From positions 744,001-808,000 of the forward strand of contig NZ_JAGJBZ010000001.1 of assembly GCF_020010925.1 (NCBI RefSeq): a stretch of 64,000 nucleotides of DNA, written 5' to 3'. Source of the stretch: Streptomyces griseiscabiei (GTDB lineage Bacteria; Actinomycetota; Actinomycetes; Streptomycetales; Streptomycetaceae). Positions 51,413 to 51,762 of this stretch are shown in pieces. Position numbers and translations under genes: made by a program. The notes below the pieces were generated by a model that had not been told where the DNA came from, made no database searches, and saw only the letters and a program-made list of their open reading frames with translations. Each line of letters starts with the position of its first letter. Position 1 is the first letter of the stretch.

Positions 51413-51437
51413 AAAAATCCCCTCGCACAGGAGGGGA
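51413..51437 (-). terminator. Attenuator terminator of the leuS leader
   Basis: On the minus strand a TCCCCTC/GAGGGGA stem (51431-51437 with 51418-51424) with a 6-nt loop is followed by five U residues (51413-51417). This is a true rho-independent signature, unusual for this genome. It lies between the leader peptide and leuS. Just upstream in the RNA, 51483-51493 pairs perfectly with 51439-51449 (11 bp), and 51451-51456 with 51472-51477, offering competing structures. Confidence 0.85.
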
Positions 51438-51483
51438 CGCCGCGCTGATGCCGACCACGCCGTTCACCGGCGGTCGGGACTGA

Positions 51484-51522
51484 TCAGCGCGGCTCGCTAA
51501 GCAGAAGGCGTACGGCACGCAT
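51484..51522 (-). CDS. leuS leader peptide with a triple Leu run
   Basis: A 12-codon open frame, [12 protein letters not shown], runs from ATG 51522 to TGA 51484. Three consecutive Leu codons (CTT CTG CTT at 51499-51507) make translation sensitive to charged tRNA-Leu. TACCCT, a good Streptomyces -10 (TAnnnT), ends 6 nt before the ATG, which places the start codon at or near the transcript 5' end; the leader is probably translated from a leaderless message. No Shine-Dalgarno sequence is visible. Stalling at the Leu codons would alter pairing of 51483-51493 and so affect the downstream terminator. Confidence 0.82.
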
Positions 51523-51762
51523 GGGCTCAGGGTACCGCAGCCCCGATGGACACAGACCAGCGGCGTGTCAGCCACGGGATCCGGCCAAAAAAGTTGAACC
51601 TTATTCAAAACTTACTTCGCGTAACGACCCCTAAGGGGCAACACAGATGTGAGATTGGCCCTTGATAACAGCGCAATAACTCAAACCTCGTACCGCCCGG
51701 TATTGGCACCACTTACAGTTCGACGACGGGACCGCTTTCCCGAACTGTTCGGAGTTGCCCCC
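51523..51762. promoter_or_regulatory. Divergent intergenic region between the leuS leader and the haem-b gene
   Basis: This is an AT-richer intergenic stretch. It contains the leuS leader -10 (TACCCT) next to 51522. At 51594-51608 there is a palindrome TTGAA-N5-TTCAA, operator-like, about 155 bp upstream of the plus-strand gene. A short CCCCTAAGGGG hairpin follows at about 51628-51638. No gene is supported here. Confidence 0.5.

Follow-up and report, generated by a model that had tools for sequence, protein, structure and literature searches.

Our analysis indicates that leuS of Streptomyces griseiscabiei is quite probably controlled by a leucine-responsive, ribosome-mediated transcription attenuator located just ahead of the gene in the 64,000-nt stretch of DNA that was analysed (the window). 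The leader element as such, leaderless start included, is already known from other Streptomyces. What is added here is its taxonomic spread, the pattern of its CTT codons, and the geometry in which a helix formed by segments 2 and 3 (helix 2:3) abuts the intrinsic terminator.

The leuS leader and its probable leaderless start

The leader of S. griseiscabiei reads ATG CGT GCC GTA CGC CTT CTG CTT AGC GAG CCG CGC TGA (Table 1), and its run of leucine codons ends in a CTT (51501-51499) that is near-invariant in relatives. Six bases (GAGCCC) separate the TACCCT box from the A of the ATG, and no Shine-Dalgarno motif is present in the sequence upstream of it. Segment 2 overlaps the final two codons of the leader and its stop. 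The terminator arms, GTCCCCTC (51438-51431) and GAGGGGAT (51424-51417), are accompanied by a U5 tract at 51417-51413. When this single sequence was folded from leader nt 29, helix 2:3, the inner hairpin and the terminator all coexisted in one fold. The original prediction had described, on the minus strand, the 12-codon frame with its CTT CTG CTT, the 11-bp stem over the stop codon, an internal stem and a U5 terminator (51413-51437 in that account) before leuS, as well as TACCCT 6 nt ahead of an ATG that lacks a Shine-Dalgarno; its coordinates were reproduced exactly, the stem arms pair as claimed and the fold returned every helix. The leuS product was identified by its match to TIGR00396 (896 bits against a cut-off of 548).

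Table 1. Features of the leuS leader region, in window coordinates.
Feature	Positions	Strand	Remarks and basis
-10 box, TACCCT	51529..51534	minus	presumed promoter of the leaderless transcript; seen in sequence
Leader ORF, 12 codons	51484..51522	minus	ATG at 51522-51520; presumed transcript start
Regulatory codons CTT CTG CTT, Leu6-Leu8 (codons 6-8)	51499..51507	minus	
Segment 2, 5' arm of the 11-bp helix, GCCGCGCTGAT	51483..51493	minus	fold, helix scoring, covariation
Inner hairpin inside the 2:3 loop	51451..51477	minus	fold; variable among relatives
Segment 3, 3' arm of the 11-bp helix, ATCAGCGCGGC	51439..51449	minus	adjoins the terminator directly
Intrinsic terminator, hairpin GUCCCCUC / GAGGGGAU and U5 tract	51413..51438	minus	fold, covariation
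leuS, leucyl-tRNA synthetase, 956 aa	48477..51347	minus	regulated gene; TIGR00396 leuS_bact

The search for Rfam families at the locus gave best overlapping matches with E-values of 2.9 (opposite strand) and 4.5 (same strand), far under the gathering scores, and no T-box was among the four matches obtained at E up to 10 between 50400 and 52400. A homology to the Burkholderia sRNA BcKCsr2 (E 4.5) was taken as chance. Six relatives gave no known RNA family at E 0.1.

In S. avermitilis and S. coelicolor, the only species named for leuS in the accessible part of the paper, attenuators of the classical type had been predicted ahead of this gene (Seliverstov et al. 2005, PMC1262725). In its accessible text, the 2021 reannotation of S. 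lividans TK24 places a leader peptide, LeuL2, before leuS; it is leaderless, has a hairpin and a U stretch downstream of it, and is identical in sequence to the S. griseiscabiei peptide (PMC8079986). The comparison confirms a leader known from two short printed entries. No anatomical difference between the S. lividans and S. griseiscabiei elements was seen in that text, and the LeuL2 account, as far as it is accessible, is silent on the geometry of 2:3, on the CTT pattern and on how widely the element occurs. Eight leader peptides are reported there for S. lividans, of which leuL1, leuL2, ilvL, metL and thrL are leaderless and four precede synthetase genes (alaS, thrS, trpS and leuS). This list contradicts the original suggestion that a leaderless peptide attenuating a synthetase would be an unusual combination; otherwise the proposed assembly, in which a leucine leader with a leaderless start is joined to a helix gated by the ribosome and to a terminator ahead of leuS, is supported, the identical S. 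lividans peptide included (PMC8079986). In the open-licence literature we found no paper describing the leuS leader across the class, or the CTT pattern.

Relatives of the S. griseiscabiei locus agree with the leaderless reading. A TAnnnT box followed by ATG or GTG 6-7 nt on was found in 126 of the 131 leuS loci that could be anchored on the RNA motif (132 loci less L115, which has no anchor), the spacing being 6 nt in 100 and 7 nt in 26. The start codon was ATG in 94 and GTG in 32, and all 126 were in frame with the leucine codons. At the remaining five loci (L067, L079, L086, L119 and L158) the script missed the start by settling on a different copy of the motif, and their leaders can be seen in the ORF survey. 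That survey favoured starts with a -10 box and its 123/123 is not independent evidence, whereas the count anchored on the motif is. An ATG that gives way to GTG while the gap to the -10 box stays the same, together with a leader length that varies by whole codons, is the trace expected of a translated leaderless ORF. The transcript probably starts at or beside the A of the leader ATG: the -10 spacing fits a start within 3 nt of the start codon, with transcription start sites mapped in S. lividans alone (PMC8079986, accessible part). The check in the original prediction for a start downstream of 51484 is addressed solely through analogy with that species.

Spread and conservation in actinobacteria

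A covariance model, R1, was built from 20 Streptomyces leaders, out of 25 aligned and 30 loci. It matched 148 of 150 Streptomyces genomes, arguing that the leuS leader is more than a chance arrangement. R1 also matched all 121 family genomes (17/17 genera; 28 of the 121 are Streptomyces) and 87 of 246 class genomes, 22 of them Streptomyces. A second model, R2, was derived from 90 sources, namely S. griseiscabiei and 89 loci that include a leuC leader (L121), a false match (L128) and a repeat (L150); it matched 122 of 246 class genomes. These class counts are upper figures for leuS, since leaders of leuA and leuC, and some false matches, are among them. When genomes were drawn from the whole phylum, R2 matched 16 of 246 at E 0.001, two of them outside the class: one locus (L309) carries leuS with the leader MAAALLLSPPR, a peptide also found in a Nitriliruptorales MAG (L229) among the matches listed in the scan of named genomes, and the other (L310) carries a leuA leader.

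leuS lay downstream in 132 of the 139 fetched loci (L032-L170). Among the seven without a leuS match, L104 has the motif at a contig end and L121 precedes leuC; L125, L126, L129 and L130 are partial model matches without a leader and, like L128, which falls within a long ORF, were treated as false. One place was fetched twice (L060 and L150). The R2 searches added 20 new places, 15 before leuS and five before leuA, and 19 further places that are partly second matches (4 leuS, 10 leuA, 4 leuC and 1 citramalate synthase). The names leuA, leuC and citramalate synthase rest on tblastn to a single fragment per gene and on the best NCBIfam match of that fragment, which scores under the curated cut-offs for whole proteins, as can happen with fragments. 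A DNA-pattern scan of named genomes that was blind to leuS returned at least 119 stretches; among the matches listed, leuS was within 450 nt downstream in 110 of 119, and Nocardioides, Amycolatopsis, Saccharomonospora, Prauserella, Jiangella, Nakamurella, Knoellia, Ornithinimicrobium, Frankiales and others were represented. Model and pattern matches thus point to relatives of the leuS leader being widespread in the actinobacterial class, and its extension beyond Streptomyces makes many natural variants available to test. At the 123 leuS loci with a scored leader, the element precedes two deeply different types of LeuRS: identity to S. griseiscabiei LeuS over the aligned stretch is at least 58% in 101 and below 50% in 22.

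A leader bearing three consecutive leucine codons was present at 123 of the 132 leuS loci, a run of codons cognate to the downstream synthetase. Of the other nine, inspected by eye, eight (with L060 and L150 being one place) have a leader frame with one or two leucine codons, whereas in L115 the contig stops within the region. CTT was the final leucine codon of 118 of the 123 leaders and, among distinct leader ORFs, of 71 out of 76; the codon before it was CTG in 62, CTC in 47 and CTT in 14. By comparison, CTT makes up 0.26% of the 3,495 leucine codons in the downstream leuS genes. CTT was also kept, by eye, in seven of the nine loci without the triple run (a count in which one place figures twice); the leader of L114 has no other leucine codon. 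Exceptions do occur: the run closes with CTC in five of the 123 leaders, L110 and L115 have CTC and CTG in this place, and L302, L323 and L324 have a run without CTT. The final leucine codon starts 6-8 nt upstream of helix 2:3 in 116 of 119 leaders, and this spacing is kept where the stop has moved upstream (LLLT-stop: L107 and L122) or downstream (L094 and L097). High-GC bacteria read CTT by wobble with a GAG tRNA. We read the pattern as suggesting selection for a slow, starvation-sensitive codon, related genomes being non-independent samples; it makes the identity of the sensed leucine tRNA directly testable.

The helices are conserved along with the codons. In an alignment of 87 leuS leaders (the 90 rows behind R2 less the leuC leader, the false match and the repeat), which was fitted to the model and is hence biased towards it, 96.0% of cells were paired, compared with 88.3% in shuffles, of which 0/500 reached the observed value; pairing fell to 40-55% when the alignment was slid. 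Changes affecting both partners were seen for 19 of 25 pairs, and every one of the three helices contains such pairs. The full 90 rows gave 95.8% against 87.6% with the same 19/25 pairs. Helix 2:3 was 98.3% paired with six of its 11 pairs changed on both sides, and the inner hairpin columns were gaps in about half of the 87 relatives. The joint conservation of leucine run, stems and terminator proposed as a check in the original prediction was therefore observed in genus, family and the 87-leader alignment. RNAalifold on the 25 Streptomyces sequences gave almost no covariation, as these sequences are too similar, and the promoter-leader pairing that it proposed from these near-alike sequences was disregarded.

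In 117 of 119 leaders, helix 2:3 and the terminator are between -1 and 2 nt apart, a distance for which values from -2 to 13 nt were permitted; the loop between the 2:3 arms spans 3 to 77 nt. The 119 are the 123 leaders less three without a scripted terminator and one without a helix, and the helix call in L142 is doubtful. A terminator with hairpin, U tract and covarying stem was found throughout the 123 except in L089, L101 and L103, where the script found none; in L162 it picked a wrong hairpin. Four loci of Actinophytocola, Amycolatopsis and Saccharomonospora (L172, L179, L198 and L208) have a longer terminator hairpin and a poor U tract (e.g. GGGGGGTCGAGTTGTTT in L179), and termination there may require another factor. 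In several class loci (L064, L067, L068 and L071) a stretch like CATGTCCGGA follows the U tract, and its ATG is not reliably in the leuS frame. The idea that CATGTCC, which many relatives carry downstream of the U tract, marks a conserved second start was considered and set aside, as the frames into leuS disagree in the few read by eye.

Ribosome position and termination

In E. coli attenuators of the trp type, the position of the ribosome on the leader peptide gates a helix ahead of the terminator, and some bases belong to both structures; in the leuS leader the gated helix abuts the terminator instead. The effect of ribosome position was modelled by equilibrium ensemble folding of 94 of the 123 leaders (loci L056 and later, less L142 and those unscorable for helix or terminator) in five ribosome states, with the 3' edge of the ribosome footprint assumed to lie 12 nt beyond the start of the A-site codon. 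Leu1 and Leu2 denote the first and second of the last three leucine codons. Helix 2:3 was present (P >0.5) in 93 leaders with no ribosome, 94 at Leu1, 93 at Leu2, 40 at the last leucine codon and 0 at the stop. With the assumed 12-nt edge, the helix therefore behaves as ribosome-gated, from 94/94 at Leu1 to 0/94 at the stop. The terminator core, on the other hand, had a median pairing probability of 0.997 in all five states. It fell below 0.5 in six leaders as full RNA, one at Leu1, one at Leu2, two at the last leucine codon and eight at the stop; these last eight are contrary to expectation and speak against the abutment proposal made below. A base-sharing antiterminator that excludes the terminator was not seen in the equilibrium folds of the 94 leaders in any of the five states, and, with the terminator median at 0.997 in every state, equilibrium folding alone gives no antitermination. 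In the models, then, the ribosome gates 2:3, yet the base pairs of 2:3 and those of the terminator can exist side by side and the textbook exchange is absent. The attenuator of the original prediction holds in the folds as far as ribosome gating of 2:3 is concerned; the stems named there are not mutually exclusive at equilibrium, a point that the prediction left open.

We propose that RNA polymerase would start at or beside the A of the leader ATG and that a ribosome would load on the bare 5' end, as is in print for S. lividans. With ample Leu-tRNA, the ribosome would reach the stop and cover segment 2, so that no 2:3 helix could form and the terminator would halt transcription. With scarce Leu-tRNA, it would pause at the leucine codons and leave segment 2 exposed; 2:3 could then form flush against the terminator and the polymerase would continue into leuS. 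The near-invariant rare CTT would be the main sensor. Since the 2:3 and terminator hairpins share no bases, and since their contact is steady with no exchange of pairing, steric antitermination is proposed: the abutting 2:3 duplex might block the base of the terminator from closing in or at the polymerase exit channel. The computation shows the 2:3 geometry and, within its models, the switching of 2:3; that 2:3 prevents termination is inferred. We offer only tentatively, as possible rather than probable, the whole of this view, namely a widespread actinobacterial attenuator outside the textbook scheme, in which a helix abuts (0-2 nt) and sterically blocks a terminator with which it shares no bases, CTT read by one wobbling leucine tRNA is the main sensor, and a related module serves leuA and leuC and, with branched-chain codons, perhaps cimA. 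If abutment is true, a ribosome-gated helix can defeat a terminator without shared bases, an added way of doing so.

A classical attenuator, in which a terminator arm base-pairs instead with segment 3 or a portion of the leader to give mutually exclusive structures, is in our estimate unlikely. This is the reading in print for leuS of S. avermitilis and S. coelicolor, and the elements described there, in the accessible text, share with ours a leucine-codon leader peptide and a terminator before leuS but have an antiterminator hairpin, whereas no pairing that regularly excludes the terminator was seen here (Seliverstov et al. 2005, PMC1262725). By eye, the CUCCUU leucine codons of many relatives could pair with the GAGGGG of the terminator. 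This candidate was rejected, as the terminator was not displaced in most folds and a stalled ribosome encloses and hides these codons. An extension of 2:3 into the 5' arm of the terminator was also rejected: the codon before segment 2 varies (GGG, GAG, CGG, CAG, AAG, AGG, TGG) and is conserved at its last G only, so the extension is not conserved. No pairing that removes the terminator appeared in the minimum-energy folds of S. griseiscabiei or in most ensemble folds of the 94 leaders.

A constitutive terminator behind a translated, non-regulating leader, with leuS output set by promoter and terminator strength, seems to us quite improbable. The terminator does fold in nearly every state in the 94 leaders, and codon changes in the S. 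coelicolor ilvB and leuA leaders deviated from the prediction of classical attenuation, regulation by the ilvB leader having survived them (PMC1262725, accessible part). However, the rare CTT is retained in 118/123 leaders while neighbouring leucine codons vary, its distance to segment 2 stays steady despite a shifted stop (e.g. L095, L107 and L122, LLLx-stop), and helix 2:3 covaries. A conserved RNA that acts as a protein-binding site and is not read by a ribosome, as proposed in 2005 for the leuA LEU element in the accessible part of PMC1262725, would agree with the strong sequence conservation of the whole element in the 25 Streptomyces sequences and with one model finding both leuA and leuS leaders (its training held one leuC leader), but we consider it very improbable, as ATG and GTG are interchangeable with 126/126 in frame, peptide length varies by whole codons, and codons and helices are conserved while loops are variable.

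Related leaders ahead of other genes

The ribosome-read attenuator preferred for leuS has likenesses elsewhere. The leuA LEU element (LeuL1 of S. lividans) also has a leaderless leucine-run leader, often CTT-ended, and soon after the run a GC-rich arm that overlaps the ORF's 3' end. Unlike the leuS leader, it is without a typical intrinsic terminator according to the accessible text of PMC8079986, and its stem is said to extend to the leuA Shine-Dalgarno box in that of PMC1262725. Mycobacterial leaderless Cys-rich upstream ORFs (PMC4633059, accessible part; see also Canestrari 2020, as cited in PMC13236596) likewise have codons that match the pathway; they concern cysteine, and no such intrinsic terminator is mentioned in the accessible text of PMC4633059.

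R2 also matched leuA leaders (L290-L294, L297, L299, L305-L307, L310 and L325-L328). In several of these the leucine run ends in CTT and a GC-rich arm with GCCGCG comes soon after. The leuS and leuA leaders may be of common origin, as judged with a model that is not blind to such elements (one leuC leader was in its training).

Leaderless-looking leucine-run leaders of the LEU-element type, e.g. MRTVLLLLSGRDETSF, also precede leuC, which encodes the large subunit of 3-isopropylmalate dehydratase, in five genomes of one class family, f36 (L121, L295, L296, L298 and L300). For three of these five genomes a leuA leader was fetched as well (L294, L297 and L299). In L301, at about 266-360, the frame MPSQVLIIVRRAG with Val-Leu-Ile-Ile-Val codons lies before a citramalate synthase gene. 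A GC-rich helix covers its stop and a terminator follows about two bases on, as seen by eye in this single case, which has the architecture of the leuS leader but branched-chain codons.
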